This document shows, in pieces, positions 1 to 44,459 of a stretch of DNA of 64,000 nucleotides (position 1 is its first letter; every line of letters begins with the position of its first letter). Source of the stretch: Natronococcus sp. CG52. GTDB lineage: Archaea > Halobacteriota > Halobacteria > Halobacteriales > Natrialbaceae. The position numbers and the translations under genes were made by a program. The stretch lies in NCBI RefSeq assembly GCF_023913515.1, contig NZ_CP099392.1, forward strand, positions 124,001 through 188,000, read 5' to 3'. Under the pieces are notes generated by a model. That model searched no databases, was not told where the DNA came from, and worked only from the letters and a program-made list of their open reading frames with translations.

Positions 1-1749
1 CTCCCGCGTATACCCGTTACCCGTGGGGCTATCTCGACCGCCGTTTTGCTCGGCACACTCCCGACACTTGCCGTCGTCGCCGCTCACGTGTGGACCGTCT
101 ATCAGCGGAACGTGCTCATGTACGTGCTCGTGATCGCGATCGGGATTACCGTCGTTTCTTACCGGTTCCTTCCGCGTCGCCGCTATCCTCTCGTAATCGG
201 ATCGATCGCCCTCTCGACGTTTCTTCACCGAAATCTGGCCTCCTCGTCGCTGGTCGGGGCCGACGTCCAGTTACACTATTATCTCGCAGCGAATTATCAT
301 GAGACGGGCTACTGGAACATCGAACTGGCGAGAGAGAACGCGTCGGTCCCGCTCGTCACCGTGGCGCCGGCTGTCTTTTCGACCGTCATGGGGGTCGACC
401 TCACGTTTGCGTTCACGGTCGTCTATTCGTTCTTCGTCGCGTTGCTACCCGTGGCGATCTACTATCTCGTCCGCGACCCCCTCGGAGCGGCCCCGGCGTA
501 CTTCGGCAGTCTCTTCTTTCTGTTTTATCACGGTACGTTTTATTTCACTCCCGGCAAGGAGCACGTCTCCGAACTGTTCGTCGTTCTCATGCTACTCGCG
601 CTACTGAGCGATCGTTCGGGGCCTCGAGCGACGCTTTTCGCGCTCCTGTTCGGCCTCGGGATGGTCATGTCACACTATGCGACGTCATTTATTTTCATCG
701 TCGCATTGGCCAGCTGTGCGGTACTGATTCGACTGGCACCGGGCATCGATCATCGTGCGGTCGGCAGGACGATCACCCTCCCGTTCGTGGGGACGCTGTT
801 CGCGATCACGATCGGGTGGTACTGGGTTATCTCCCCTGCACTGATAGATACGCTGGCAATGCTACCGGGATCGATGGCTGAACAACTCTCGCATCTCATC
901 GCGCTCGAGTTCGAATATCTCTCCGGGGGCACCGGCGCTGGCATGGTTCAACAGCAACAGACCACCCTCCAGCGACTGATGACGTACCTCTATGCCAGCA
1001 TAGTCGCTCTTGCCGGAGTCGGACTGGCGACTCGAGCCTATGCGGAGTTGTGGGCCGAATCGTCCTCGGTTGCGGCCAGTTCGCTCGTCGGTCTTGCAAT
1101 CCCCCTGTACGGTATCCTCGGAATCTCGGCCGTCGCAATCCACGATCTGGACGCCGATCGGGTGCTCCAGATCACGATGCTCGCTTTGGCTCCTTTCGCC
1201 GTCATCGGATACAGGGATCTCTACTCGAGGACCAGTGGAATCCAACAAACCGTCGAATGGTTGCCGCTCGTGGCACTGCTGCTAACCGTATTCGTCATTA
1301 ACGTCGGAGCCGCTCCACAACTCGTCGGAGAACCCACCGATTTCACGTTCGACGACGAGGTTTCCGACTTCGCGTACACGGACGACGAGATTGAAGGAAT
1401 CGAGTGGCTCGAACAGCGAGAATCGATCGATCGGACCGATGGAGCGGGAGACGACTCAATCGACGTCTACACCGACACACGCACAAATCAGCTGTTCAGG
1501 GCGGTCGTTCCGCCTGATTATTACGAGATAGAGATACACCCGCTCCCGACCTCGACTAACTCCGACCACTCGCTCGACGACGGATACATCGTCATCAGAG
1601 AACGCGCGGTCAACGACGACGGCACTATCGGAGAACTCACTGAGCGAGAGCGGGAACGGATTGCAGAGGACGAGTCGACGGAGAAGGTCTTCGACAACGG
1701 AGAGATGCAGATCTACGAGTATCGGTCCGACCCGCCACCAGATAGGTGA
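1..1749 (+). CDS. Multi-span membrane protein, DUF2206-like (5' end outside window)
   Basis: The frame is open from base 1. The first possible start inside the window is a TTG at 46, so the gene almost certainly begins upstream and is partial here. The visible protein has about a dozen hydrophobic segments up to about residue 430. A hydrophilic, acidic C-terminal domain of about 130 residues follows, probably facing the outside. The layout (polytopic N-terminus, many aromatic residues, soluble C-terminal tail) resembles archaeal DUF2206 and GT39/oligosaccharyltransferase-like proteins in surface-glycan clusters, and the genes downstream fit that setting. I see no clear catalytic motif in the visible part. 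Its biochemical role is unknown; work on lipid-linked sugars is an inference. Confidence 0.7.
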   Translation, partial: LPRIPVTRGAISTAVLLGTLPTLAVVAAHVWTVYQRNVLMYVLVIAIGITVVSYRFLPRRRYPLVIGSIALSTFLHRNLASSSLVGADVQLHYYLAANYHETGYWNIELARENASVPLVTVAPAVFSTVMGVDLTFAFTVVYSFFVALLPVAIYYLVRDPLGAAPAYFGSLFFLFYHGTFYFTPGKEHVSELFVVLMLLALLSDRSGPRATLFALLFGLGMVMSHYATSFIFIVALASCAVLIRLAPGIDHRAVGRTITLPFVGTLFAITIGWYWVISPALIDTLAMLPGSMAEQLSHLIALEFEYLSGGTGAGMVQQQQTTLQRLMTYLYASIVALAGVGLATRAYAELWAESSSVAASSLVGLAIPLYGILGISAVAIHDLDADRVLQITMLALAPFAVIGYRDLYSRTSGIQQTVEWLPLVALLLTVFVINVGAAPQLVGEPTDFTFDDEVSDFAYTDDEIEGIEWLEQRESIDRTDGAGDDSIDVYTDTRTNQLFRAVVPPDYYEIEIHPLPTSTNSDHSLDDGYIVIRERAVNDDGTIGELTERERERIAEDESTEKVFDNGEMQIYEYRSDPPPDR

Positions 1750-28815: not shown

Positions 28816-29595
28816 ATGGAAGACGGACTACGGCAACTGAAACCGGGAGAACACGCGGTCGGTAACTGGATCTCTATCGGGCACCCGACAGTCGCGGAGA
28901 TCTGCGCTCGTGGGTTCGATTTCGTGATCATCGACACCGAACACACGGCCACGGGTCTCGAGTCTCTGGAAAACGTCCTTCGAGCGGTCGACGCGCTCGA
29001 CGAGGACGTTGCACCGCTCGTTCGTGTCCCCTGGAACGACCGCACTCGGATAAAGCGCGTTCTCGATCTGGGGGTAGCGGGGCTGATGATTCCGATGATC
29101 GAAACCCCCGAACAGGCAGAGCGGGCCGTCGAAGCGATGCGATACCCGCCCGAAGGTGTCCGCGGAGCCGCTCCGGCCCGAGCCTCCGACTACGGGCGGA
29201 CGTTCGACGAGTACTTCGATCGCGCGAACGAGGAGCTAACGACCGTCGTACAGATAGAGACCGAACGCGGCGCCGAGAACGCCGAGGAGATCGTCTCCGT
29301 CGACGGCGTGGACGCGATCATCGTCGGCCACGGAGATCTCTCGGCGTCGATGGACGTCTTCGGCGAGTGGGAACACGAGCGATTCCGGTCGACACTGCAG
29401 TCGGTGCTGGAATCGGCTCGTGGTGCTGGCAAGCCCGTCGGAATGCTCGCAACCGACCGTGAGGGAATTCGGCGCTGGGTCGACGCCGGCGTCGATTTCG
29501 TGATCGTCGGTGCGGACATGTTCTACCTCGCCGACGGCAGCGATGCCGCACGAACGGAGTTCGAGGAACTGACAGGGAGCTCCGATTCAAGCTGA
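28816..29595 (+). CDS. HpcH/HpaI family aldolase
   Basis: A 259-residue TIM-barrel enzyme. Family motifs are clear: GNWISIGHPTVAEI, FDFVIIDTEHTA, VRVPWNDRTRIKRVLDLGV, GLMIPMIETPEQAERAV, and VQIETERGAENAEEI with the metal-binding Glu. VGHGDLSASM supplies the Asp. Members cleave 2-oxo-3-deoxy acids such as 2-dehydro-3-deoxyglucarate or 4-hydroxy-2-oxoacids into pyruvate and an aldehyde with a divalent metal. Substrate choice cannot be read. It is transcribed alone. Confidence 0.9.
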   Translation: MEDGLRQLKPGEHAVGNWISIGHPTVAEICARGFDFVIIDTEHTATGLESLENVLRAVDALDEDVAPLVRVPWNDRTRIKRVLDLGVAGLMIPMIETPEQAERAVEAMRYPPEGVRGAAPARASDYGRTFDEYFDRANEELTTVVQIETERGAENAEEIVSVDGVDAIIVGHGDLSASMDVFGEWEHERFRSTLQSVLESARGAGKPVGMLATDREGIRRWVDAGVDFVIVGADMFYLADGSDAARTEFEELTGSSDSS

Positions 29596-29767
29596 ACCGC
29601 GGTGTTAGGAGTGCAACGGAGCCATCGAACGACTACAGTCGCCGACGGCGTCGTTCTTGCATGGTCGAGGCACACCTCCCAGAACTCGAGGGCGAGCGTA
29701 TCCGGTACAGCGACGGCACCCGGAAGTTTACCGGCGCGGATCGACGTGAAACAGAACGGCGATCAGC

Positions 29768-30238
29768 TCAATCGGGAGTACCTGACCAGTCAAACTCTTC
29801 GTGGATCCGCCGTCCTTCCTCGTTCAGGACGGGGCCGACGACAGCGGTAATCCCATCGAGGATCGTCGCTGATCGGACGGACGGGCCACTACCCGTGAAC
29901 TCTGTAATCTCGTCTCCGCCGACGCTGTACACGACCCGGTCGAATCCGGCCCGTACCATACCGCCAGCACACATCGGACACGGCTCCGTACTCGTGTACA
30001 TGATCGTTTCCGAACGGTCGTCGGGATCGAGTTTTCGACACGCACGGTACGCGAGGTGGAGTTCTGGGTGTCGACGGATATCGTTCTCCGTGACGACGCG
30101 GTTCGAGTCAGCCAGAACGACTGCGTCGTCGCGAACGAGCACGCTGCCGAACGGTCGATCACCCCGGTCAGCGGCCTCGCGAGCGAGTTCGAAGGCCCTT
30201 CGCATGTGCGAATCGTGATCGAAATCGTCGGGATTCAT
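29768..30238 (-). CDS. Zinc-dependent nucleoside/base deaminase
   Basis: A 156-residue protein of the cytidine/deoxycytidylate deaminase fold. The zinc motif reads HPELHLAYRAC (in place of the usual HAE) and TEPCPMCAGGM. The remainder aligns in length with guanine deaminase and tRNA-adenosine deaminase relatives. The C-terminus (GPVLNEEGRRIHEEFDW) favours a small base or nucleoside deaminase over the tRNA editor. It should act in the cytoplasm in nucleotide salvage. Confidence 0.85.
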   Translation of the reverse strand: MNPDDFDHDSHMRRAFELAREAADRGDRPFGSVLVRDDAVVLADSNRVVTENDIRRHPELHLAYRACRKLDPDDRSETIMYTSTEPCPMCAGGMVRAGFDRVVYSVGGDEITEFTGSGPSVRSATILDGITAVVGPVLNEEGRRIHEEFDWSGTPD

Positions 30239-30469
30239 GTTGATCGTGTCTGTACGAGCGGCGAGAAGCGAGATAAGTTGCCCCGGTGGATTCTCAGCGA
30301 GTTACGGATCGCGGTTCGTCCGAGTCGCGAACGCTTTTCGAGTCTCGATTGCTTCGGTTCGTCGGACGAGCAGCGACGTCAGCCCAGCGGGCTGTTTTCC
30401 GCTATGACTGTCTGTTAGAAGAAATTGCACCGGCACTGCCGATCGTAGGTGTCCGTAGACACCCACGGG

Positions 30470-30595
30470 CTATAGTAACAACTGGAACGGTTTCCACACC
30501 GATCGCAGACGGGAGCGCGGGTCGGAGCGAGCGAAGCAAGCGAGAACCGCGGACAGTGCGATCGAGTGTGCACTGACTGTCGGTGGCTACTATCG
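30470..30595. repeat. MITE-like palindromic element, copy 1
   Basis: A 126-bp element with related inverted ends (CTATAGTAACAACTGGAACG at the left; the right end reads GTCGGTGGCTACTAT). The interior is a long GC-rich palindrome (GGTCGGAGCGAGCGAAGCAA..., pairing with the other arm). The second copy is at 41054-41180. Between the inner CGATCGCA/TGCGATCG arms the core is reversed relative to copy 2. It has no coding capacity. Confidence 0.7.
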
Positions 30596-30809
30596 TTGAG
30601 ATAGTGGACGAACTCGATTCGGATCCCACCGACGGACCGCTGAGCCAGTAGCTACTCTCACGTGCAACGGACCCGAACGATGCGGGGGTACGAACTTCCG
30701 CACACTTTCGCTTCGTTCTACGGTTGCACACCAACCCAAACCCGAGCTCGCCTACGCCCTGCCAGTGACTAAACTGAAGTAACGTCCCTCTCATTGTAGC
30801 GAATGTTCG

Positions 30810-31274
30810 ATGGACACGACGCTTCTCATTGGTCCTCGACATCAACGCTTGGAAACGCGGGCCTTCCAGACGGCCGATCGGATCGCCGAGGATTCCATCG
30901 GAAGCGTTCTCTACCTGACGCGTAACGACGGTCGGCGCAGCCACGTTGCAAACGCGTAGGCTGAATCGAACGAGCCACTTCGATTCCGCGCCGAGACGCT
31001 CGATGCCGTTGTTCGAGAGTGGTACGAGAAGCTTGCTGGCCCGGTAGAATCACTCCCTGGAACAGTGAATCGGCGACTCGCAGAATACGCTCTCGATGAG
31101 ACGACAGAAAACAACGAGAACGCGCGTGCCCTCCTGCGGCACGATTCCGGTCGTGGCGTCCGCGCGTCGCTCCGGTTTACCGCCGCCGTCGTCGAAGAGT
31201 CCGTCGAGTGGAGTGCTGAACGGATCAGTGAGATCGAAGCCGAACTCCGGTCGATGCTCACAGCACTCGAGTGA
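30810..31274 (+). pseudogene. Unknown protein gene interrupted by one TAG stop
   Basis: From ATG 30810 the frame reads MDTTLLIGPRHQRLETRAF, then SVLYLTRNDGRRSHVANA and a TAG at 30957-30959. It continues in the same frame as AESNEPLRFRAETLDAVVRE, then GTVNRRLAEYALDETTE and on to a stop at 31274. Composition is the same on both sides of the stop, so a single mutation (perhaps TGG to TAG) seems to have broken it. The region resembles the start of a haloarchaeal UvrD/exonuclease-like ATPase, but that match is from memory and weak. An internal deletion is likely. Confidence 0.5.
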
Positions 31275-31307
31275 TCATCGATCGAATCGAGATCGGAGAG
31301 GGCGGGC

Positions 31308-32276
31308 TCAGCTGAACTCGAGGGCGTTGCGAATCCCCGTTTCGATGCGGTCCGCGTCGGGCACGTAGGCGTCCTCGCGGGCGAACAGCGGAACGGGCAC
31401 GTCGTAGCCGGTCACCCGCTCGACGGGGGCCTCGAGGTAGAGGAACGCTTCCTCGTTGACTCGAGACGTGATCTCGCCGGCCATGCCGCCGGTTTGGGGC
31501 GCCTCGTGGACGACGACGCACCGACCCGTCTTCTTCACCGAGTCGGTGATCGTCTCCGTATCTAGCGGGTAGAGCGTTCGCGGATCGACCACCTCGACGC
31601 TCGCGTCGATCTCCTCGACGGCGTCGAGCGTCTCGCGGAGCATCGACCCCCAGGCGATCACCGTGACGTCGTCGCCGGCTTCGGCCACGCGCGCCTCGCC
31701 GAGCGGGATCTCGTGGTCGTCGGGAACCTCCTCGCGGAACGAGCGGTACAGCCGCGTCGGCTCCATGAAGACGACCGGATCCGGGCTGCGGATGGCCGAC
31801 GTGAGCAGCCCCTTCGTCTCGGCCGGCGAGGAGGGGAAGACGACCTGCAGGCCGGGAATGTGCGCGAACCCGGCCTCGAAGCTCTCGGAGTGAAGCTCCA
31901 GGGCGTGGATGCCGCCGCCGTACGGCATTCGGATCGTCATGGGACAGCTGATCGTTCCTCGAGTGCGACTCCGGATCCGCGCGACGTGCTGGGCGAGCTG
32001 GTGGAACCCCTGGTAGAGGAAGCTCTGGAACTGGATCTCCGGGACGGGTCGCATTCCGGTGGCCGCGAGTCCGACGCCGACGCCGACGATGCCCGCTTCC
32101 GCGACGGGCGCGTCGAACACTCGGTCCGGATAGTCGTCGGCCAGCCCCTCGGTCGCCCGGAACACCCCGCCGGCGCGGGCGACGTCCTCTCCGTAGACGA
32201 CGACGCCGTCGTCGCGCTCGAGTTCCTCGCGGAGCGTCTCCCGAACGGCCTCGATCATTCGGAGGCGTTCACCCAT
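31308..32276 (-). CDS. 2-oxoacid dehydrogenase E1 component, beta subunit
   Basis: A 322-residue protein from ATG 32276, overlapping the end of the alpha subunit gene by 8 bp. The frame is open further upstream but that part only mirrors the alpha gene. Family motifs include VVVYGEDVARAGGVFRATEG, PVAEAGIVGVGVGLAATGMR, and the C-terminal transketolase domain (VIAWGSMLRETLDA, DPRTLYPLD). With alpha it decarboxylates a 2-oxoacid (pyruvate or branched-chain) using thiamine diphosphate. E2 and E3 are not next to it, so they must be elsewhere. Confidence 0.92.
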   Translation of the reverse strand: MGERLRMIEAVRETLREELERDDGVVVYGEDVARAGGVFRATEGLADDYPDRVFDAPVAEAGIVGVGVGLAATGMRPVPEIQFQSFLYQGFHQLAQHVARIRSRTRGTISCPMTIRMPYGGGIHALELHSESFEAGFAHIPGLQVVFPSSPAETKGLLTSAIRSPDPVVFMEPTRLYRSFREEVPDDHEIPLGEARVAEAGDDVTVIAWGSMLRETLDAVEEIDASVEVVDPRTLYPLDTETITDSVKKTGRCVVVHEAPQTGGMAGEITSRVNEEAFLYLEAPVERVTGYDVPVPLFAREDAYVPDADRIETGIRNALEFS

Positions 32277-33342
32277 CGACCTCACCTCCGAAGGCCTCGT
32301 ACTGGCGCTCGAGTTCGGGCGGCATCTCCGCGTACACGTGCCGGAACATGTCCGCCGGATCGATCTCCTCGCGGCCCTCCTTCGCCAGGTCGATCGCCTC
32401 GGCGATCTCGGATTCGACTCGATCATCGATAGTCGCCTTCGTCTCCTCGTCGAGGAGTCCCCGATTCTCGAGGTACACCTGGAAGCGGACGATCGGATCG
32501 CGGGCCTCCCACTCCGTTTCTTCCTCGGACTCGCGGTAGACGGAGGGGTCGTCGGAGGTCGTGTGCATCGAGCGCCGGTAGGTGAGCGCCTCGACCATCA
32601 CCGGGTTCCCGTTCCGAGCGCTCTCGATGGCGTCTTGGACGACCCGGTAGACGCCCAGTACGTCGTTGCCGTCAACCTGAATCCCCTCGATACCCGCTGC
32701 GATTGCCTTCTGGGCGAGGGTCTCGGCGTCGGTCTGTTTCTCGAGTCGCGTGGAGATGGCGTACCGGTTGTTCTGACAGACGAACACCGTCTGGGCGTCG
32801 TAGACGCCGGCGATGTTGAGCGCCTCGTATACGTCCCCCTCGCTAGTCGCACCGTCGCCGAAGTAGGTGACCGCGACGTTCGATCGGCCCTGCAGCGCTT
32901 CACCCCAGCCGACGCCGACGGCGTGCAACGGCTGGCTCCCGACGGGAATCGCCGGCGGCAGCGCCCCCTCGCCGCCCGGAATCTCGGCCCCCTCCTCCAT
33001 TCCCAACGCGTACTGGAGAATCCTGTGGGGCGGCGTCCCGCGGGTCAGGAGCGCGGGCTGTTCGCGGAACGAGGGGACGATCCAGTCGTCCTCGGCCATG
33101 GCGAACGCGCTTCCGATCTGTGCCGCCTCCTGACCGATCGCGGGTGCGTACGTCCCGAGTTCACCGCGACGCTGCAGCGAAACGGCGCGTTCGTCGAGTC
33201 GGCGCGACCGCTTCATCTGCTCGTACAGTTCCAGTAACTGCTCGTCGCTCAGCGAGGGGACCAACTCCTCGTCGACCGACTCGTCCTCGGATAGTACCTG
33301 TACCGATCTGATAGTGAACTGAGCGCGCTCCTCTTCGGGCAT
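32269..33342 (-). CDS. 2-oxoacid dehydrogenase E1 component, alpha subunit
   Basis: A 357-residue protein. The thiamine diphosphate motif is complete: GDGATSEGDVYEALNIAGVY followed by VFVCQNNRYAIS. The RRSMHTTSDDPSVYR segment corresponds to the phosphorylation-loop region of E1 alpha. The start ATG 33342 gives the normal length. It forms an alpha2beta2 enzyme with the overlapping beta gene. Haloarchaea carry several such pairs, and this one cannot be assigned to pyruvate or branched-chain substrates by sequence alone. Confidence 0.92.
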   Translation of the reverse strand: MPEEERAQFTIRSVQVLSEDESVDEELVPSLSDEQLLELYEQMKRSRRLDERAVSLQRRGELGTYAPAIGQEAAQIGSAFAMAEDDWIVPSFREQPALLTRGTPPHRILQYALGMEEGAEIPGGEGALPPAIPVGSQPLHAVGVGWGEALQGRSNVAVTYFGDGATSEGDVYEALNIAGVYDAQTVFVCQNNRYAISTRLEKQTDAETLAQKAIAAGIEGIQVDGNDVLGVYRVVQDAIESARNGNPVMVEALTYRRSMHTTSDDPSVYRESEEETEWEARDPIVRFQVYLENRGLLDEETKATIDDRVESEIAEAIDLAKEGREEIDPADMFRHVYAEMPPELERQYEAFGGEVDG

Positions 33343-33532
33343 ACCGTTGGTACTTGTCGAGGAGGCTTAATGCGTCGCCCAGTATGCGACGGTGATACAC
33401 GCCACCGCTGTGAACGCGACTGTTCCGGCGACCTCCCGCCGATCGAGCAGCCCGGACACCGTGACTGATACGTTCGGTGCAGCCGGTACGTCGAGACAGA
33501 GAACTTTTCAGGGTTTGTGACAGCCACACACT

Positions 33533-34399
33533 ATGGACGACGAAACGGTCGGGATCGCGCTCGTGCTGACCTCCGCGATCGGGTTCGGCACGCTCGGTAT
33601 CTTCGGCATTCTCGCCGCCGAGGAGGGACTCTCGATCCCGACGGTTCTCGCGCTGCGATTCAGCCTCGCGACGGTCGTCGTCTGGACGTTCCTCTGGCTG
33701 CGAGGACGGTTTCGCGTTCTCCTCGGCCGGCCGCTCGCGATCGCACTCGCGCTCGGCGGGATCGGCTACGCCACGCAGAGCGGCCTCTACTTCCTGGGAC
33801 TCGAGTTCATGACCGCCGGAATGGTTGCGATCGTCCTCTACACCTATCCGGCGTTCGTCGTCTGCATCGTCGCGATCACGAACCCGGACCGGGTGACGAC
33901 GGTCGTGTTGCTCGCGCTCGGCCTGTCGATCGGCGGCGTCGCGCTCATCACCGGCGCGGATCCGGCGGGTGTCGACCCTCGAGGCGTTGCGATCGTTCTC
34001 GGTGCGGCACTCGCCTACTCGCTGTACATCGTCGTGAGCCAGCGGGCGCTCACGACGGTCGACGCCGAGATACTGACGGCGTTCGTGCTGCCCGCTGCGG
34101 CCGTGACCTTCGTCGGGTTCGGCGCCGGAACGAACGCGCTCGCGATGCCCGGCAGTGCAACCGCCTGGGGGGTCGCGCTCGCCATCGCGATTTTCGCGAC
34201 GGTGGTCCCGGTGCTCACCTTTTTCGCCGGCATCGCGAAGATCGGGGCGAGTCGAGCGAGCATCATCAGCACCGCCGAACCCGGTGTCACGGTCGCACTG
34301 GGCGCGCTCGTACTCGGAGAGCCGGTTACGATCGTGACGATCGTCGGCGGCACCCTCGTCGTCACTGGTGTTATCCTCATTCAGCGTGAAGACGCCTGA
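33533..34399 (+). CDS. DMT superfamily transporter (EamA)
   Basis: A 288-residue membrane protein with ten hydrophobic segments in two repeated halves (SAIGFGTLGIFGI in the first; GAALAYSLYIVVSQRAL and ISTAEPGVTVALGALVLGEP in the second), the pattern of EamA domains. It probably exports a small metabolite. It diverges from the E1 operon; about 190 bp lie between them. Confidence 0.88.
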   Translation: MDDETVGIALVLTSAIGFGTLGIFGILAAEEGLSIPTVLALRFSLATVVVWTFLWLRGRFRVLLGRPLAIALALGGIGYATQSGLYFLGLEFMTAGMVAIVLYTYPAFVVCIVAITNPDRVTTVVLLALGLSIGGVALITGADPAGVDPRGVAIVLGAALAYSLYIVVSQRALTTVDAEILTAFVLPAAAVTFVGFGAGTNALAMPGSATAWGVALAIAIFATVVPVLTFFAGIAKIGASRASIISTAEPGVTVALGALVLGEPVTIVTIVGGTLVVTGVILIQREDA

Positions 34400-34544
34400 C
34401 GGGCGCTTTCTGACGCTCGTCTACGAGGAGTCGACGTAGCAACTCTCCCATTCCCGATCGATCACTTCGTCGTCCCAGGCGACCTGGACGCACTCCTCGA
34501 TATGCTTTCGCACGGATTCTCACCACGCGGATGGTTCCCTCGTC

Positions 34545-35315
34545 TTACTCTTCTTCATCAGCACTGTCGTCGCTTCTTCGGCGTCTGTGGTGATCGTCTC
34601 GTCCACGCCCCCGTGCATCATTCGGTCCACGACCACGATCATCGTTCTCGTCGATTCCTGGATAGTGGTGGTGAATAATCTCGTCGTTCTCGCGGATCAT
34701 CAGACCGGAGTCGGGTCTCGTGTGAAGCTGTCCATCCTCATGCCAGACATCACCCATCCCGTCGAACTGGACTTCGATATCTTGGACTTCGAGCAGTTGG
34801 CCCCGGATTTCGCCATCAGGATGTTCGACAGTGTGTACGTTCGCGTACGTCTCCTCGTCTCGAATGGCGTCCACGAGTGTCTGGAACGATTCATCCTTGA
34901 ACGGGCCGAGAAGGGCATCTTCTGTGATCGTGCCGTTCGCGAGAACTCCGTTGAAGGTAACTCCACCTTCGATTTCCCCAGTGAATTCTCCGCTCTCGTC
35001 TCGCTGCCCAAACAGAAACGCGACGACATCGCCGGACCCTTCACGTTTACCGGCGTGGATGTGGGCCTGGGTAATCTCCTCGAGTTCCGTAACGAGCAGT
35101 ACGTAGTGAAGTTTGGTTTCGTCCTGTGAAAGGCTGAAAACAGCGGTGCCGACACCGTCACTTTCGAGCGGCGGTTCCTGTTGGTCACCGGTCATCGCGC
35201 CTGCGCTGAACAGCGCGGCTGCGTCGAAATTCTCGTCGTCCTGTGCGAACGCTACCGGTACTTGTGTGAGCGCCAGCGCGCCCGCCCCCAATTGGAGTAA
35301 CTCACGTCGTTTCAT
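34545..35315 (-). CDS. Exported CHRD domain protein
   Basis: A 256-residue protein. The leader MKRRELLQLGAGALALTQVP is a Tat signal with cleavage near AFAQ. Residues about 35-175 form a CHRD domain (LHYVLLVTELEEITQAHIH, GVTFNGVLANGTI, YANVHTVEHPDGEIRGQL), with the family's His-rich positions. The C-terminal 60 residues are an unusual mix of charged repeats (HHHYPGIDENDDRGRGPND and DDHHRRRRSDD). The CHRD fold is related to chordin repeats; its role in archaea is unknown. Confidence 0.86.
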   Translation of the reverse strand: MKRRELLQLGAGALALTQVPVAFAQDDENFDAAALFSAGAMTGDQQEPPLESDGVGTAVFSLSQDETKLHYVLLVTELEEITQAHIHAGKREGSGDVVAFLFGQRDESGEFTGEIEGGVTFNGVLANGTITEDALLGPFKDESFQTLVDAIRDEETYANVHTVEHPDGEIRGQLLEVQDIEVQFDGMGDVWHEDGQLHTRPDSGLMIRENDEIIHHHYPGIDENDDRGRGPNDARGRGRDDHHRRRRSDDSADEEE

Positions 35316-35867
35316 CGTTAATCAGAACACGGTGATCCGTGTTCTACCCGTATTTGGCCGGAGAACGGGTTAGTCTTCGTAGGAGGATCGTGGAACAATA
35401 ACGTATCATGACCAGTCGCGAATAGCAATAAGTTGGCGAACACCAACCCAACAATCAGTATTGATTATGATTCTCGATCCGTGTCGTTCTGAATCGGCCA
35501 CCCTGATCGCTGACAGCTGGAAACCATCGTTTGTATATCCTGCACTGAACGGTCTGGCGCGTTTTCGGTGGGAGGACAGACCGTGCTGCGTCCGCGCCTT
35601 CTATTCAGCATATCTCGATTGAATTATAGAACTACTGTCCAAAGTGGCCCGCTGAATACAGAGGATGAGTGCAGCAGCCTGACTTCGTTCGTTCCGGGTG
35701 ACCCATGCTAAGCGAGTATTTGGGAAACCTGCGAACCTAACGCTGTCATTTCTTCATCAACGTGAACCAGGGGTTGTGTGATCTGTTTATACGGCGATAC
35801 TGCTGTACCGCGCAGGTAGGATTTTATCGGAGAATGGCCTACAGACGTTACGACGATAGCGAAATGG
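35316..35867. other. Spacer with no convincing gene
   Basis: About 550 bp between the CHRD gene and the small membrane protein. Short frames lack start signals and haloarchaeal composition. No repeat or structured RNA is obvious by eye. Confidence 0.5.
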
Positions 35868-36269
35868 TTGTTTTCAGCTCTTCTAATACTACAGGCTCAC
35901 TTTGCGGCTTCGTATCTTGTTCCGCTGGACAGAGAAGCCCAACAAGAGTTTGGCGGCCTCTTGAGGTGGGTCTGGCCCTGGAGCGATGGCGACAGTGGGC
36001 TGTTGGGCCAGCTTACGGTGTCGTCAGACTTGCCGTTTATCGGATTATTTCTCGCAATGATCGCGGCAACCCTCTTTTTCTGTGCTGCCCTCGCGGTAGT
36101 AGAGATCTGGGTTCCGTTCGGCTGGTGGAGGATACTGGCTGGGGGCGGGGTCATCCTGTCGCTCGTCTTGATGGCGGGATTTTTCGGAGCCACGAAGGTG
36201 ATTCCGATGGCCATCAATGTCGTCGTTTTATGGGCCCCCGCAACCGATTGGCTCCAGCCCCCCGAGTGA
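35868..36269 (+). CDS. Four-span membrane protein, unknown
   Basis: A 133-residue hydrophobic protein with segments near residues 1-20, 50-80, 85-110 and 112-130. The only start is TTG 35868; the frame opens 48 bp upstream without ATG or GTG, so the true start may be mutated. The first helix contains an LQAHFAASY segment similar to small proteins near cytochrome oxidase genes, but no such genes are here. It probably sits in the membrane; the role is unknown. Confidence 0.5.
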   Translation: MFSALLILQAHFAASYLVPLDREAQQEFGGLLRWVWPWSDGDSGLLGQLTVSSDLPFIGLFLAMIAATLFFCAALAVVEIWVPFGWWRILAGGGVILSLVLMAGFFGATKVIPMAINVVVLWAPATDWLQPPE

Positions 36270-36383
36270 TGTCGATAGCTGATAAACGTGACGGCGTTAC
36301 GTTTGTATCTCTACGTATCGAATTGTCCACTCGGATCTAGAACCACGATCGAACAACGCGTTCCGTTTGACGAAAGGGATTCT

Positions 36384-36983
36384 TCACGGGACCGACTCCA
36401 CCGCTTCCGGGAGATCGTCGGGCTGTTTCCACGTGATGACCCGTTCGCTGACCGCCGCCTCGAGCGCAGCCAGGTGAGAGGCTGCCATCCCGTTGTCGTA
36501 GCGCTCGCGCATCTCTTCGTCGCTCTCGTAGATGCGCTTCAGCATCCAGAACGCGTTCCGAACGGCCGTCTGGTAGTGGTAGAGATAGCCGAGTTCCCAG
36601 ACGTGGCCGCCGTCGTAGTCCTCGAGGACGCCCACGATGGACGACGACATCTCGGAGAGGATGTCGAACGCGGGGGCCCACAGATCCAGTTCGTCGCCGG
36701 TGAAGCCGAAATCCTCGAGTCGAAACGCGATCGCCGCCCTGCGCTCGTCGAGGAGATCACAGACCTTCTGACGCCGTTCCCCCGGCGCACCCGAGCCGCG
36801 GCCGATGACCAGGTACCGCCGATCAGCCCGCCGAATATCAGTAAATAGCTCGCCGTGTAGCCCGTTCTTCAGCCGCTCGTGCTGTTCGGGAGTCGGATTG
36901 AGCCGCTCCTCCTCGTTCAACCGTTCCGGATCGACACCGTCGATATACGACCCTTCGTCGACTCCGTCGTCGCCGCCTTTCAT
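36384..36983 (-). CDS. Conserved soluble haloarchaeal protein, unknown
   Basis: A 199-residue protein with an acidic N-terminal tail, then a mostly helical body (ERRQKVCDLLDERRAAIAFR, then SEMSSSIVGVLEDYDGGHVW and LYHYQTAVRNAFWMLKRIY). It has no signal peptide or membrane segment. The helical repeats suggest a signalling or regulatory fold. It diverges from the winged-helix regulator that follows. I do not recognise the family with certainty. Confidence 0.65.
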   Translation of the reverse strand: MKGGDDGVDEGSYIDGVDPERLNEEERLNPTPEQHERLKNGLHGELFTDIRRADRRYLVIGRGSGAPGERRQKVCDLLDERRAAIAFRLEDFGFTGDELDLWAPAFDILSEMSSSIVGVLEDYDGGHVWELGYLYHYQTAVRNAFWMLKRIYESDEEMRERYDNGMAASHLAALEAAVSERVITWKQPDDLPEAVESVP

Positions 36984-37109
36984 ACCCGTATCTGATAAGT
37001 CCCACCACTAATAGAGGTATTGATTGTGGAATCATTCAACGAAATAGTCGTGCCATCGATTGATTCTATCGACCGAGTGTTTATGGTGATTGCCCGCGTA
37101 TCCCCTCGT

Positions 37110-37547
37110 ATGCACCCGAAGACGCAGTCGACGAACGCCGGCGGCGGGGGGCAGGGTGACCCCGACGCGTTCGATTCGTGGACGGCGCTCCAGAAGTCGA
37201 CCGACAGGACTCGAGCGAACCTGATCGCCGACATCGTGGGTCACCCGAAAGGCGCGCCCAGCGTGACGGAACTGGACTACATGAATCCGAGCCTCGAGGC
37301 GGACGCGATCCGCCGTCACCTCACCATCCTGCGGGAGGTCGCCGTCGTCGAGGAACTCGTGGTAGAGACAGGGAATCGGATTCGAGGCTACCCGTACAAG
37401 TTCTATCGGCTGAGCGATGCAGCCCGCGAGTTGTTCGATCGGAACGACCTGTTCCCCCGGGAGGCGTGGCGGCGTCAGTACGCCCGCGTCCAGCGGACCG
37501 GCGAAATCAAGGACGTCGAGGAGATGCCCCGCCCGACTGCCGACTGA
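37110..37547 (+). CDS. Winged-helix transcriptional regulator
   Basis: A 145-residue protein from ATG 37110. Residues about 10-90 form a winged helix (RANLIADIVGHPKGAPSVTE, then DYMNPSLEADAIRRHLTILR and the wing IRGYPYKFYRLSDAARELF). This resembles small haloarchaeal ArsR/MarR-like regulators. It lies beside the gene of unknown function on its left and may regulate it. Its last 41 bp overlap the end of the UPF0104 frame on the other strand. Confidence 0.75.
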   Translation: MHPKTQSTNAGGGGQGDPDAFDSWTALQKSTDRTRANLIADIVGHPKGAPSVTELDYMNPSLEADAIRRHLTILREVAVVEELVVETGNRIRGYPYKFYRLSDAARELFDRNDLFPREAWRRQYARVQRTGEIKDVEEMPRPTAD

Positions 37548-38450
37548 GTTTCTCGAAGACTTTCCCTCCACTCTCGTTTCCCCTTCTGACGGCCCTCTCG
37601 CAGGAACTCGATGGCCACTCTCTTGCTCGAAAGTTCGGACGGCGTCGACGGTCTCCTCGAGCGAAGTGCGAAACCGTGGCCGATCCGGCGCCGAACAGCA
37701 ACGGGAGCCAGTAGGTCGCCGCGCGGTAGAGAAGGGTTACGGCCGTCGCCTCGACGGCGGGAACGCCCGCCGTCGCGATGAGCAACAGGATGAATACGGA
37801 TTCGACGTTTCCCAGCCCTCCCGGAAGCGGCAGAATATTCGTTATCGCACCGAGTGGAACGATGAACAGGGCGGCTTCCGGCGGAATCCCGTAGCCGACG
37901 GCGTACGCGGCGAGCCAGAGCGCGAGCGAGAGACACAGCCAGCCGCTCGTCGAGTAGAGTAGTGCGCGTCTCAGGTTGCGTTGATCCTCGGTTACTCGTT
38001 CGACCTCGTCGACGAACAGTTCGAAGCGACGGTGTAACGTTATCGGTGAAACCGCACGAACTCCGGGTACGATGGCGCTTATCCGCACCGAGATGCCGCC
38101 GAGGACCCCGGCCGCACCGTCCACGAGTTGCCGCCGGTATCGCCACCCGTGAAAGACGCTCACCACGAGCGCTCCGAAGACGGCGAGCACGGCCAGCAGT
38201 ACGAGTTCGGTCGGTCGACCGAGGGTGGCCGTCACCGCGAAGTACACCAGCCCGACCCCCGCCAGCGGCAACATCGGGGCGTAGTTGAGCAGGTCGACGC
38301 TCGAGACCGTCGCGAAACTCGTTTCGTAGTCGCTTCCGGTGTGGCGTGTCAGTAAGTACGCTGCGAGCGGTTCGCCACCGAGATACGTCGATGGAGCGAC
38401 GCTGTTCGCGAAGAGCAGGTCTCCAAACAGCAGGTTTCCATGACGGCTAA
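37507..38450 (-). pseudogene. 5'-truncated UPF0104/flippase-like membrane protein
   Basis: The frame carries the middle and end of a lysylphosphatidylglycerol-synthase-like (UPF0104) membrane protein: FANSVAPSTYLGGEPLAAYL, ETSFATVSSVDLLNY, and LPLPGGLGNVESVFILLL. The usual first 80-90 residues with two to three membrane segments are absent, and the sequence upstream of 38450 does not look like coding DNA. The normal stop also seems lost, since the frame runs into the regulator gene. It is probably inactive. Confidence 0.6.
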
Positions 38451-38639
38451 TAGATCTCCTCTGGATCGGTGCGTTGTATTCAACGCGATTTCGGCGGGTA
38501 GCGGTACGCGTGAAACGAGTATGTGGGTGCCTAGTGATAATCAGCCAACCGCTGGCTGCTTGCAGACGACGAGCGGAAGTCATCAGTTGCAAGACTGGTT
38601 GAACAGTTCAGTTAGTTTGTACCCGTCGTGAGTTCGACA

Positions 38640-39164
38640 TCAATTGTAAACCTCGCCGAACCGCTCGTGTGACCCAAACCACGTTCCGAGAGTCAATCCG
38701 TAAATCGCATGCCCAACGTGAAAGACAAGCGCTTCGTCCTCCTCTAACTCTCGATCGAGGACGTACACGAAGATGACACGATGGCCGAAAACCGAAAGGA
38801 CAAATCCGTACGCGAGCCCGGTGATGAGTCCTAACCGCTCTCGGTCGAGGCTCGTTTGCCGGTCGATAACAGCGAAGACGGGGCCGAAAACTCCTCCGGC
38901 ACCGGCCCCGTAAAGAAAGTGGAGGACCAACCCGTGAAGCGGATACTGTTCGGCTTCCTCATCGCCAACGAATCGCGCCCAAAACTCGGCAGTCGGTGGA
39001 AGCGCGCGGAAAATCGGCAACCGATACAGCGTCATGACGGCCGTCGCGATGAATCCTCCTTTCACACCGCGAATCACAGCACGATATAATATCGGAGCGC
39101 GAGGGATTCGTTGTGCCCGTCCCCGAGTGAGGACTCGATGTTCGATACGATCGGAGGATGCCAT
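38640..39164 (-). CDS. Small membrane protein, unknown
   Basis: A 174-residue protein from ATG 39164. It has four hydrophobic segments (GGFIATAVMTLYRLPIF, LHGLVLHFLYGAGAGGVFG, LITGLAYGFVLSVFGHR, FHVGHAIYGLTLGTWFG). The repeated H-x-x-x-G pattern suggests paired helices. This type is common in haloarchaeal genomes with no known role. Confidence 0.65.
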   Translation of the reverse strand: MASSDRIEHRVLTRGRAQRIPRAPILYRAVIRGVKGGFIATAVMTLYRLPIFRALPPTAEFWARFVGDEEAEQYPLHGLVLHFLYGAGAGGVFGPVFAVIDRQTSLDRERLGLITGLAYGFVLSVFGHRVIFVYVLDRELEEDEALVFHVGHAIYGLTLGTWFGSHERFGEVYN

Positions 39165-39284
39165 TACTCTCTGTTTCCGCGGCGGAGAAGTTAGCCATAG
39201 TGCTGGAACTCTCACAGTGTTTCGGTCAGCATCTCAGGAGCTGTGCTGATCGTGTTAGCCGCTGTTCGTCTACATCGTGGGCGG

Positions 39285-39896
39285 TCAGGAGTACCGCTGC
39301 TCGATTTCGAGCGCGGTGGCGACGGCTTCGTCGAACCGCTCGCGCAATTCCTCGCCGAACTTGTCGATGCGGGGATCGTGATTCCCGGGTGTCAACGACT
39401 CCCAGTCACCTGCCCGGTCGGCGGTGTACTCCCGCCGAAAGCGCTGGCCGTTATTCGCGTAGGCCATAACGATCACTCCCGGATCGGCTTCGTCGTCCTG
39501 TTCGTCGCTGTCCGCATTCTCCCAACCTCCGGTTGCAACCACGCTCACGCGCCCGAAGTCTCGTAAGTCGACGCTGTACTCGCCGATGCTGAGGTGTTTG
39601 ACTAACCACTCGCGATTCCACTCGTCGATTTCTCCGGTATCGATATCGCTTCCCGTCACGGTATCCTCCGAAATCGACTCGATGCGCCACTTGGTGAGCG
39701 CCGCCGATTCTAGTTCTTCTCGCGTTCGACTCCGAATGTCCCCCTCTACGACGAGATCTCCCTCCCTGACGTGGATGTAACGCGGGTTGGTCGCCGGAAT
39801 ATCGATGTAGATCTCTCCGGGTTCCGTGTTGACGATAGCTTCGACTCCCTCGATGTCTTGCGTTACCGTAGTCCGGTTGTATTTGTCTTCAGCCAT
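39285..39896 (-). CDS. Conserved soluble haloarchaeal protein, unknown
   Basis: A 203-residue acidic protein with alternating beta-like segments (GEIYIDIPATNPRYIHVREG, then WLVKHLSIGEYSVDLRDFGR) and a helical C-terminus (FGEELRERFDEAVATALEIE). No signal or membrane segment is present. It has the feel of a conserved haloarchaeal protein, but I cannot name the family. Confidence 0.6.
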   Translation of the reverse strand: MAEDKYNRTTVTQDIEGVEAIVNTEPGEIYIDIPATNPRYIHVREGDLVVEGDIRSRTREELESAALTKWRIESISEDTVTGSDIDTGEIDEWNREWLVKHLSIGEYSVDLRDFGRVSVVATGGWENADSDEQDDEADPGVIVMAYANNGQRFRREYTADRAGDWESLTPGNHDPRIDKFGEELRERFDEAVATALEIEQRYS

Positions 39897-40186
39897 TTGT
39901 CGTCCCTACAGAGGCGCTGTCTCTCGCGCTGGGGGGATCTTCCTTCCAGTTCGTCCCTTCCCGTCGCGGCACTGCGTTCCTCGTTATTACTACGCGACAA
40001 CCACGCTTTCACTTGTCGGTGGTCCATACGAGCCGCGTATACAGCGCGCACCATCGTCCGATCAAACCGGTGGTAGGATCGGTCAGTACAGGAAACGTAC
40101 TGTTCTCTGGTCTCGCTTGAACTGCGTATCTTGCACAGTAATCCGTACCAAAATCCACGACCGTATTCATACCGCGCGAATCTCGT

Positions 40187-40196
40187 TTATATAAAA
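40187..40196 (+). promoter_or_regulatory. TATA box upstream of the universal stress gene
   Basis: TTATATAAAA lies about 50 nt before the ATG at 40242, leaving a short 5' leader. It is one of the clearest archaeal TATA boxes in the window. Confidence 0.55.
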
Positions 40197-40241
40197 GTAC
40201 TCGTGGGGAAGATTGGTGACTGTTCGGAGCGAATAGCGGAT

Positions 40242-40676
40242 ATGGAACAGCATATCCTCGTTCCGGTGGACACCTCGTCCAGTTCCGAGAGCGCCTTCGA
40301 ATACGTCTTGGAAGAGATTCCACGGCCGACAATAACCCTCTTGCACGTAATCAATCCACTCACCGTGTTCAACTACGTGCGCGCTGAGGGATTCGACTAC
40401 GAGAAGTCTCAACAAAAAGAGCGGGAGCGACGCGAAGCCGTCGAACAGATCTTTGATGGGTACCGCAGCAAGGATGCAGCACGTGACCGCGAAATCAAAA
40501 CGGTCATCGAGGCGGGAAATCCTGCGGAAAGAATCCTCGAGTATACCGAGGACAGGGGCGTGGATCACATCGTGATGGGTAGTCGTGGCAGATCCGGTCT
40601 CGAGGAAAAATTACTCGGTAGTGTGGCGAAGGATGTTGTGAAACGATCGTCCGTTCCCGTGACGATCGTTCCGTAG
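40242..40676 (+). CDS. Universal stress protein, UspA family
   Basis: A 144-residue protein from ATG 40242. It starts EQHILVPVDTSSSSESAFEY and ends with the ATP-binding signature GSRGRSGLEEKLLGSVAKDV, then VPVTIVP. The G-x2-G-x9-G-S/T pattern is preserved, so it is likely an ATP-binding member. A TATA box sits upstream. Single-domain UspA proteins are abundant in haloarchaea and respond to stress. Confidence 0.92.
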   Translation: MEQHILVPVDTSSSSESAFEYVLEEIPRPTITLLHVINPLTVFNYVRAEGFDYEKSQQKERERREAVEQIFDGYRSKDAARDREIKTVIEAGNPAERILEYTEDRGVDHIVMGSRGRSGLEEKLLGSVAKDVVKRSSVPVTIVP

Positions 40677-41053
40677 CAATCAGCACACCGTTGTGCAGGT
40701 AGTTGCCGTCTGACGACAATCCAGAATGCGATCGTACGTGCTGCTATTTGCGGTGTAGCAAGGGCTCTGTCTCGTCTCTGTGAACATCACCGGTACATGG
40801 TGCAATTTCAGCGATCGGCTCGAAGTTTCTATACTGGCCGATTCAGCGAGAGTCATCCGACATAAATGGCGTTGTGGTGTATACAACCTGCCTCAGAACC
40901 TCCGAACGTCAAAATCTGTGCACGACCTATTTACACAGTCTATCGGTTGAAATACTTGGTTAGTAGAAGTCAGGCACATCAAAGATAATCGGTTGGAGTG
41001 TTCAGTGTGCATGTACACTGAACACGGGTCTCTCCCACGGAAGCCGCCACTTA
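40677..41053. other. Spacer without a gene
   Basis: About 380 bp between the stress gene and the MITE-like element. No protein-like frame, repeat or tRNA is evident. Confidence 0.5.
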
Positions 41054-41180
41054 CTATAGTACCAACTGAAACGATTTACACACCGATCGCACTGTCCGCG
41101 GTTCTCGCTCGCTTCGCTCGCTCCGAACCGCGCATCCGTCGTGCGATCGGGTGTGCACTGACTTTCAGTGGCTACTATAG
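41054..41180. repeat. MITE-like palindromic element, copy 2
   Basis: A 127-bp element bounded by CTATAGTACCAACTGAAACG on the left and TTTCAGTGGCTACTATAG on the right, which are imperfect inverted repeats. The interior is a long palindrome centred on CGCTCGCTTCGCTCGCTC. The right end directly touches a truncated transposase frame at 41181, so insertion or deletion at this end removed the transposase start. Confidence 0.75.
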
Positions 41181-41689
41181 CTACCCCCACGCAAATATCA
41201 CCCAGACTACGATCAAGAGTTCACCGCCGACCCTGATCGAGTCGCTGTCGACGAGAAACAGATTCAGTTCGGAGAAAAACGGACGGTACGGTTGTACGCA
41301 GCGATCGATGTTGACTCGAAAGTCGTGCTCCACGCACGACTTTCTGAGCATCGTGGACGAGATCCCGCTGAAACGCTCTTAGAGGAACTCAAAGAGAAAC
41401 ACCGCGTCTCTCACGCGGAGTTTCTCGTCGATGGCATGGGATATCTCACGGCCCTCACTCGGACCGATCTCACCGACCACCTTGATTATTCTGAGCGCAA
41501 CATCGTCGAGAAGCTGTTCCAGACGTACACCATGCGGATCGAACGGTTTCACGAAACCTGGAACGGCAGTCAGCCAGCGCCGAGCGCTGGCTGACTGCCT
41601 ACACCGCCTACTACAACCACCACCGCAGCCACCAAGCACTGGAGAATCAGACGCCTCCCAAAGCACTCGAACTGGAGGGCTCAATCTAG
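41181..41689 (+). pseudogene. Truncated DDE transposase relic
   Basis: The frame opens at the MITE border and reads YHPDYDQEFTADPDRVAVDE, then VRLYAAIDVDSKVVLHARLS and VEKLFQTYTMRIERFHETW. A one-base shift near 41575 is needed to reach SAERWLTAYTAYYNHHRSHQ and the end TPPKALELEGSI. It lacks the N-terminal DNA-binding region. It belongs to an rve-type DDE family like that of the relic at 26331-27652; the exact IS family is unassigned. Confidence 0.75.
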
Positions 41690-41789
41690 CAGTGCCGAGT
41701 AATCTATTGAGTTTCCTCTCACCCACGATCAGATATCTGGTGATAATTTAATAGAACTTATTTTATATAAATATATAACCAATAATGTA

Positions 41790-41800
41790 TTTATATATAC
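41790..41800 (+). promoter_or_regulatory. TATA-rich promoter for the DUF1080-propeller gene
   Basis: A very AT-rich stretch (41755-41810) contains TTATATATAC centred about 27 nt before ATG 41823. This spacing fits a leaderless transcript and supports ATG 41823 over the upstream TTG 41814 and GTG 41817. Confidence 0.5.
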
Positions 41801-41822
41801 AGATAAACGTGAGTTGGTGTAC

Positions 41823-44459
41823 ATGCAGAATTCAAAGAAAAGTAGTAATTCACTACCTGATCGAATAAACAGACGGCAGGTTCTACAGGCAATAGGCGGC
41901 TTCGGTGTAACGGGCTTAGCCGCTAATTCTGTGATGGGGAACGCCGAGGGTGATCAAGACGAGTGGATTCAGCTCTTCAACAGAGAAGATCTGGATAACT
42001 GGACTCCTAAATTCACGGGGAAGTCCGCTGGAGAAGGGCACAAGAATACGTTCGTCGTCGAAGATAGGCTGCTTAAGGTCAAGTACGACGAATACGATGA
42101 GTGGGATGGCACCTTCGGCCACCTCATCTACGACGACGAGTTCTCCCATTACGTTCTACGGGCGGAGTATCGTTTCGTCGGGAAACAAGTACCCGGTGCT
42201 CCCGATTGGGCTTACAGAAACAACGGGCTGATGCTCCACGGCCAAACGCCGGAGGAAATGGATGTTAGTCAGGACTATCCCGATTCCATCGAGGTCCAAT
42301 TGCTCGGCGAGGCAGACGACACCGACACTGAACGCCCGACTGCAAACGTCTGTACTCCGGGTACTCACATTGTCATGGACGGAGACTTGCACGAACAACA
42401 TTGTACCAACTCGAGTTCTGACACCTACCGGGGCGACCAGTGGGTGACCGTAACCGTCGTCGTTCGTGGCGATCAAGCAATCCGTCACATAGTCGAGGAC
42501 GACGGAGTCGTCATGAGTTATACGGAGCCGCAACTGGAAGACGGTACTCCGCTCGAAGCTGGTACGATCTCCATCCAATCCGAAAGTCACCCGACCGAGT
42601 TCCGCTCGATCGAGCTGAAGGAACTCGACCCGAATTCACCCATCGGGGACGGCGATCCGACTGCCCCTGGCCCCGACTGGAGTACGTACACGAAGACGGA
42701 ACTAGCGTCCGGCCTAGAACGACCGATGGCGATCGATGTCGCCTCCGACGGACGCGTCTTCTTCACCACTCGCGGTCCCCCTGTCGAGGACGATGAGAAC
42801 GTTGGAACGGGGAGGGTCCGCGTGATCGACCCCGAAACCTCCGAGATTACGACGGCCCTCGAACTCGAGGTCTACCTCAGTGGAGAAGACGGACTGCAGG
42901 GTATCGTTCTCGACCCGGACTTCGAGCAAAACGGCTGGGTCTATCTGTATTACTCCGTCTCGACCACCGGAACCGGCGAGGATCCTCACAAGAAGTTGTC
43001 GCGATTCACGGTCGACGGAGACACGATCGACCCCGCTTCCGAAGTCAATATTCTCCGAGTGCCGGCCGCGCCCGACCCGTGCTGTCACGTCGGTGGCGAC
43101 CTCGAGTTCGGTCCAGAAGGGAACCTCTACATCTCGGTCGGTGATGATACCAGTCCGTTCGAATCGAGCGGGTATACGCCGATCGACGAGCGCGACGGAC
43201 GAGTGCTGTTCGACGCTCAGCGTACGTCGGCCAATACGGCAGATCTCCGCGGAAGTATCCTCCGGATTACGCCACAGGACGACGGCTCATACACGGTGCC
43301 TGACGACAATTTGTTCACCGAAACTCGGGGCTACGGTGAGGAACTCGCCGACGGAACGGTCCGCGAAGAGATCTACGTGATGGGCTGTCGCAATCCCTTC
43401 CGGATGAGCGTCGATCACGAGACCGGTATCCTGTACTGGGCTGACTACGGTCCCGACGCACGTCAGTGGGACGTCCAGCGTGGGCCACCCGGGATCGTAG
43501 AGTTCAACCGGACCGGTGAACCCGGTTACTACGGATGGCCGTACGTCGTCGGGCCGAATATCCCGTACGTTGACGGAGAGTTCGTCGATGCAGATAACGC
43601 ACGAGGTCACACCTTTGAGTCGTCGGGTGAGCCGTTCGATCCGCAGAATTTGGTTAACGACTCTCCGAACAACGATGGACTTACGCAGCTTCCGACGCCC
43701 AAAGAATCGAATCTCTGGTACACGTATTTGTGGGATGCCCTCTCGAGTTCCCCGCCAGACTACGCGACGGAATATCTTCCCGACGAACCACCGTTCCCGC
43801 AACTGGAAGGTGGGGCCCCGATGGGAGGGCCGGTGTATCACTCCGATAACTACTCGGGGGATCAAGCGCTGCCCGAGTACTTCGATAACAAACAATTCAT
43901 CGCAGAATGGGGTGAAGACTGGATACGGTGCGTCTCTTACGATGAAAACGGTGACGTAGTTGATATTGAGCCGTTTATGCCAAACGAGACGTTCCTGTCT
44001 CCGATGGATATGATGATCGGACCAGAGGGGGCACTGTATCTCCTCGAGTGGGGTCTCGGATACGAGACCGAAGGGACCGAACACTCAGGCATCTACAAAA
44101 TCACGGGCGGTGAGACCGAAGATGATGCGGACGAGGAGGTCTACACGGTTTCGATCGATGTGAAGAATAAGATCAATCCGAAGAGCAGAGGTGTGATCCC
44201 CGTCGAGATCGCTGGTGAATCGGAATTTGACCCGACCGAGATAGATACCGAGATTATCCGATTCGGAACGCCAGATGAAGTTGAAACGGGCGGGGGAGCA
44301 TCGCCAGCGCACGGCGGACATACGTCCGCAGATGGCTCCGTTATGCTCCACTTCAGAACGCAGGAAACGGGAGTCACGAGAGACAGTGAAACAATGAAGC
44401 TCGTCGCTGAGACAGCAGACGGAACGCCAGTCCGAGGCCAGACAAACATAAATCCATAA
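41823..44459 (+). CDS. Tat-exported fusion of DUF1080 and PQQ-type sugar dehydrogenase propeller
   Basis: An 878-residue protein. A Tat leader (NRRQVLQAIGGFGVTGLAAN) is followed at about 45-265 by a DUF1080/3-keto-disaccharide hydrolase concanavalin-like domain (WIQLFNREDLDNWTPKF, RNNGLMLHGQTPEEM). About residues 285-765 hold a glucose/sorbosone dehydrogenase propeller (LERPMAIDVASDGRVFFTTR, GLQGIVLDPDFEQNG, EEIYVMGCRNPFRMS). The last 100 residues are a small beta domain (NPKSRGVIPVEIAG, RFGTPDEVETGGG). The fusion suggests that oxidation of a sugar and cleavage of the keto product occur on one extracellular protein. It follows the transposase relic. Confidence 0.87.
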   Translation: MQNSKKSSNSLPDRINRRQVLQAIGGFGVTGLAANSVMGNAEGDQDEWIQLFNREDLDNWTPKFTGKSAGEGHKNTFVVEDRLLKVKYDEYDEWDGTFGHLIYDDEFSHYVLRAEYRFVGKQVPGAPDWAYRNNGLMLHGQTPEEMDVSQDYPDSIEVQLLGEADDTDTERPTANVCTPGTHIVMDGDLHEQHCTNSSSDTYRGDQWVTVTVVVRGDQAIRHIVEDDGVVMSYTEPQLEDGTPLEAGTISIQSESHPTEFRSIELKELDPNSPIGDGDPTAPGPDWSTYTKTELASGLERPMAIDVASDGRVFFTTRGPPVEDDENVGTGRVRVIDPETSEITTALELEVYLSGEDGLQGIVLDPDFEQNGWVYLYYSVSTTGTGEDPHKKLSRFTVDGDTIDPASEVNILRVPAAPDPCCHVGGDLEFGPEGNLYISVGDDTSPFESSGYTPIDERDGRVLFDAQRTSANTADLRGSILRITPQDDGSYTVPDDNLFTETRGYGEELADGTVREEIYVMGCRNPFRMSVDHETGILYWADYGPDARQWDVQRGPPGIVEFNRTGEPGYYGWPYVVGPNIPYVDGEFVDADNARGHTFESSGEPFDPQNLVNDSPNNDGLTQLPTPKESNLWYTYLWDALSSSPPDYATEYLPDEPPFPQLEGGAPMGGPVYHSDNYSGDQALPEYFDNKQFIAEWGEDWIRCVSYDENGDVVDIEPFMPNETFLSPMDMMIGPEGALYLLEWGLGYETEGTEHSGIYKITGGETEDDADEEVYTVSIDVKNKINPKSRGVIPVEIAGESEFDPTEIDTEIIRFGTPDEVETGGGASPAHGGHTSADGSVMLHFRTQETGVTRDSETMKLVAETADGTPVRGQTNINP

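Follow-up and report, generated by a model that had tools for sequence, protein, structure and literature searches.

The cores and interiors of a short palindromic element of haloarchaea have, as judged by comparing copies within and between genomes, inverted repeatedly with respect to the surrounding sequence, at several nested levels that form a hierarchy and, at some loci, in place. The inversion process itself is already known from other systems (PMC8604942, PMC8794818, PMC2903610). A mobile element with several independently inverting nested levels is, as far as could be found in the open-access literature, new.

Two neighbouring copies with opposite cores

The window, by which we mean the whole 64-kb stretch of DNA analysed here, sits on a 393-kb contig of the 4.74-Mb genome of the haloarchaeon Natronococcus sp. 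CG52. The only two copies of the element found in it, A and B, lie exactly where an earlier note on this DNA had placed them (Table 1). That note had described the outer arms as being in the same orientation and the central part as reversed between the copies, and alignment bears out both descriptions. Compared in the same orientation, the left arms of A and B are identical at 34/38 positions and the right arms at 35/39, while swapped arms match at 31/41 (left A against reversed right B) and 27/39 (right A against reversed left B). Core A aligns with the reverse complement of core B at 45/50 positions (score 72), versus 28/58 (score -30) when the two are compared directly. Measured between the 8-bp stems CGATCGCA and TGCGATCG, the cores are shorter than the 55-60 bp originally estimated (Table 1). 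The genes near the copies encode an HpcH/HpaI aldolase-family protein, a transketolase-family subunit and a sugar dehydrogenase-like protein, none of them recombinase-like.

An apparent inversion of this kind could reflect chance or palindrome symmetry alone, the latter being what the earlier note had named as refuting its reading, and the core is indeed partly palindromic. However, the cores pair with themselves over only about half of their length (26/57 and 30/61), and shuffling core B 2000 times never gave a score above 9, against 72 for the real reversed alignment. Symmetry is therefore excluded, and we give this explanation a negligible probability.

Table 1. Coordinates of the two element copies and their parts, as positions in the window
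Feature	Position	Strand
Copy A, whole element; alpha arm left, minority orientation (whole core flipped)	30470..30595	+
Copy A, left (alpha) arm, ending in stem CGATCGCA	30470..30507	+
Copy A, core (49 bp), reversed with respect to copy B and most other copies	30508..30556	-
Copy A, inner stem-loop (CGCGGGTC ... GAACCGCG), which in other copies is flipped by itself	30516..30551	.
Copy A, right (beta) arm, beginning with stem TGCGATCG	30557..30595	+
Copy B, whole element; majority core orientation	41054..41180	+
Copy B, left (alpha) arm	41054..41091	+
Copy B, core (50 bp)	41092..41141	+
Copy B, inner stem-loop (CGCGGTTC ... GAACCGCG)	41097..41132	.
Copy B, right (beta) arm	41142..41180	+

A short mobile element of haloarchaea

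About 80 distinct copies were gathered from the CG52 genome by sequence search and retrieval of stretches, a count that is a lower bound. They fall into two main forms, of 86 bp (with a 7-bp loop) and about 127 bp, plus a few variants of 115-190 bp. The termini are inverted repeats (CTATAGTAnCnACTG ... CAGTnGnTACTATAG), and the whole is laid out as concentric imperfect palindromes, with a terminal stem CTATAGTAnCnACTG, a middle stem C(C)GATCGCAC and an inner stem CGCGGTTC. The element is short (<600 bp), multicopy and non-coding, as expected of a MITE, and the mobility likewise expected of a MITE is indicated by an insertion site (L014) that is empty in Natronococcus pandeyae LS1_42 (G004), from the same genus as the source genome. 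At a further site (L163) the element is absent from the counterpart L118, in an alignment less clean than that for L014. When 140 well-preserved copies were searched for target site duplication, no direct repeat at any offset stood clearly above shuffled pairing, and positions 29000-43000 of the window gave no match to an Rfam family.

These properties recall the small mobile repeats (SMR) of Haloquadratum walsbyi, which PMC3119063 describes as about 80-110 bp long, with terminal inverted repeats, in many copies and without target duplication. The element here fits that account in size, ends, copy number, lack of target duplication and haloarchaeal host, although its long copies are somewhat larger. 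The same source reports that SMR-A prefers IS605/PATE targets, and core inversion in SMR was not found in the passages searched. From its sequence characters, then, the element is a MITE/SMR-like mobile element. It is present elsewhere in the family, with the long core in majority orientation in 26/125 species, and also on plasmids of Haloarcula, Halomicrobium and other haloarchaea; a contig scan of other genomes mainly confirmed this haloarchaeal range. Matches in Nocardioidaceae and Rhodococcus were set aside, as they are not recognisable as elements and look like chance.

Core orientation across copies

Since the alpha and beta arms are distinguishable, each copy can be oriented, and the core orientations could be counted over the collected copies, as the earlier note had proposed. 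Among the roughly 50 long copies of CG52, 45 carry the core in the majority orientation and 5 have the whole core flipped within stem CGATCGCA (L001, which is copy A, L002, L003, L004 and L007). The inner core alone is flipped, within stem CGCGGTTC, in 6 of the 45 majority copies (L005, L006, L008, both L010 copies and L028). Short copies are divided 19:13 in CG52, 5:16 in N. pandeyae, 1:16 in G006 and 0:13 in G001. The flips are bounded by three unrelated stems (CTATAGTA, CGATCGCAC and CGCGGTTC), and inverted segments can be as short as 7 bp. The original picture of two alternative orientations does not go far enough: inversion has occurred independently at three nested levels or more.

Because the arm tree is too short to yield firm clades, only the number of changes on it was used. 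The 5 long copies with flipped whole cores require 5 changes (shuffled mean 4.84), the 6 copies with inner flips also 5 (shuffled mean 5.73), and the short copies 8 changes of orientation (shuffled 10.3). On this poorly resolved tree, flipped copies do not group and orientation is scattered, and the long and short forms interchange frequently, with 20 changes.

The earlier note had concluded that the core can flip, possibly by an invertase. Flipping relative to the arms is supported genome-wide and, as described below, at orthologous loci, but an invertase as its agent is not. A dedicated site-specific invertase would use the core as a phase-variation switch, and inversion between the inverted repeats is exact, as such an enzyme would produce. 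Against this, the inverted segments are bounded by three stems of unrelated sequence instead of by one defined recombination site, and one of them is only 7 bp, to our knowledge too short for known kinds of two-site recombinase; together these features make a site-specific invertase very unlikely. In addition, three loci that occur twice in untrimmed contig overlaps (L021/L022, L035/L037 and L044/L045) have the same orientation in each pair, so nothing points to rapid switching. We infer that flipping is not a fast switch but something that happens rarely, in the course of evolution. Strain pairs of Haloarcula and Halomicrobium plasmids also share one orientation and are uninformative on flipping.

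Inversion in place at orthologous loci

About a dozen orthologous element pairs were defined by alignment of both flanks. The strongest evidence for in-place flipping comes from a locus shared by the sister species G006 and G001 (L191/L201), where the flanks are 96-97% identical, the insertion site is the same and the outer arms are in the same order. One copy reads CCGATCGCAC-AGCCGTC-GTGCGATCGG and the other CCGATCGCAC-GACGGCT-GTGCGATCGG, that is, the 7-bp loop is exactly reversed in an unchanged 10-bp stem. A second orthologous pair, L072/L248, also has opposite core orientations. At both loci the change has the features of a hairpin-loop microinversion, occurring in place between bounding inverted repeats that are themselves unchanged. 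Close copies within N. pandeyae tell a similar story: L219 and L220 match L224-L226 at 73-75 of 75 arm positions and have opposite cores, with the loop GACAGCT in L219/L220 and AGCTGTC in L226, whose arms agree with those of L219/L220 at 73-74 of 75 positions. Six orthologous pairs are unflipped (L190/L198, L193/L206, L196/L209, L096/L240, L110/L126 and L088/L272), and the orientation of L089/L233 is ambiguous. Two further candidate comparisons, L162 with L139/L201 and L065 with L276, were dropped as orthologs, the flank similarity stopping before the element or being missing beside it.

Elsewhere the whole interior has changed sides. The alpha and beta arms are exchanged in L029/L243, where the rare end variant ACGATAC is at the right end of both copies, and in L114/L148, where both have the rare right end TACTATAC; the interior of L278/L303 is likewise swapped, with ends that are less clear. 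A transposase acting on the terminal inverted repeats, by inversion or by reinsertion at the same site, might produce such changes, and inversions are bounded by the terminal repeats at 3 orthologous loci. There is also a possible parallel in the Correia repeat enclosed elements of Neisseria, short inverted-repeat elements reported to invert in place (Elbeyioglu et al., 2017, as cited in PMC10969869). Inversion of the Correia element apparently involves the whole element, and nested independent inversion was not found described in the sources consulted, unlike what is seen here. A transposase would at most account for the terminal level; it leaves the flips at the middle and inner stems unexplained, as the terminal sequence is absent there. 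Moreover, the 140 well-preserved copies lack target duplication and the rare end variants keep their place. We therefore regard this explanation as quite improbable.

The length of the core is often unequal between orthologs (82/223, 127/277 and 127/86), and the L076/L156 orthologs are unlike in both core orientation and length. This could mean that cores are replaced from other copies. The chief competitor of template switching, the reading that we favour below, is ectopic gene conversion. Nearly palindromic copies could pair in reverse, and conversion over a short tract with its ends in the stems would then bring in a donor core in the opposite orientation. Each genome has dozens of similar copies that could act as donors, orthologous loci fall into different core length classes, each species having its own core type (L076/L156, L088/L272 and L089/L233), and the frequent long/short interchange on the arm tree is in keeping with such exchange. 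Yet very short tracts of 7-50 bp, ending in stems of 8-10 bp, would be required, the exact inversion of the 7-bp loop between G006 and G001 is most simply a local event, and inversion of a whole interior with the end variants left in place (L029/L243) is not easily explained. On balance we consider gene conversion unlikely, though deserving of serious attention.

A probable mechanism: template switching or hairpin repair

Loop inversion by template switching or hairpin repair fits best and is, judging from the outcomes, probably the mechanism. It is favoured because all levels have a self-pairing stem, because the element can fold strongly and because spacer and loop inversions by template switching have been reported. 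The element would enter a single-stranded or cruciform form at the replication fork or during repair; at each stem the nascent strand would jump across to the complementary arm and then return, or, alternatively, the hairpin would be cut and re-copied. Either way the enclosed segment would be written back reversed with the stem unchanged, and a dedicated invertase would not be needed. The earlier suggestion of recombination across the palindrome pointed in the right direction, but template switching at a hairpin in replication or repair fits as well or better. Folded as single-stranded DNA and compared with shuffles, copy B has z = -5.5 and a short copy z = -6.0. Against template switching stand the often unequal core lengths of orthologs, the poor resolution of the arm tree, the modest folding of copy A (z = -1.5) and the shortness of the inner stem, which at 8 bp falls below the arms of >9 bp to which spacer inversions were confined in yeast (PMC8604942).

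In S. cerevisiae, template switching in replication inverts spacers between short inverted repeats (PMC8604942); loop inversion by template switching is known in rRNA genes (PMC8794818), and small hairpin-loop inversions occur in chloroplast spacers (Kelchner and Wendel, 1996, as cited in PMC2903610). As in the element here, these are exact reversals between short inverted repeats with the stem unchanged, recurrent and reversible in evolution. Unlike those cases, the present one concerns a high-copy mobile element in archaea, with at least three nested levels and spacers of about 50 bp and more. Tentatively, the nested levels may invert independently, in place and often enough to nearly randomise orientation, which would make the family a natural high-copy recorder of archaeal hairpin-mediated template switching, perhaps with an active hairpin-processing step of the element's own mobilisation as the driver.

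Hairpin loop inversion has so far been known mostly from scattered single cases. One family here provides dozens of replicate hairpins per genome, with orientation readable at several nested levels, and the rate of loop inversion and its dependence on stem length and repair genes could become measurable in archaea. The element also counsels caution, in that seemingly phase-variable inversions in palindromic repeats need no invertase.

Variant elements and contig ends

Several N. pandeyae elements (L099, L244, L258, L264, L269 and L272) are about 230-390 bp long, with long cores made of palindromic modules, arranged in tandem and nested, for example CGCGGTTCGGAACGAG; the length of these cores varies at orthologous loci. 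A 120-bp variant with a different loop (GGCGAGGTCGGTGGTGTCGACCTCGAG...) is found among L043, L054, L097 and L060, of which L060 is a 157-bp chimera that combines the GGCGAGGTCGGTGGTGTCGACCTCGAG-type loop with the usual inner core. The two L010 copies, at 158-285 (-) and 1497-1624 (+) of that locus (G000:C1 near 596337 and 597680), are nearly identical, inverted and about 1.3 kb apart. Both have the inner segment flipped and share the TTCGATCG variant, and a local duplication or a composite unit is possible. Contigs C1 and C2 of G000 have nearly identical stretches near both ends, carrying the same elements (L035/L037, L021/L022 and L044/L045). Such ends suggest that a circular overlap of roughly 36 kb was left untrimmed, in which case C2 would be a circle of about 357 kb.
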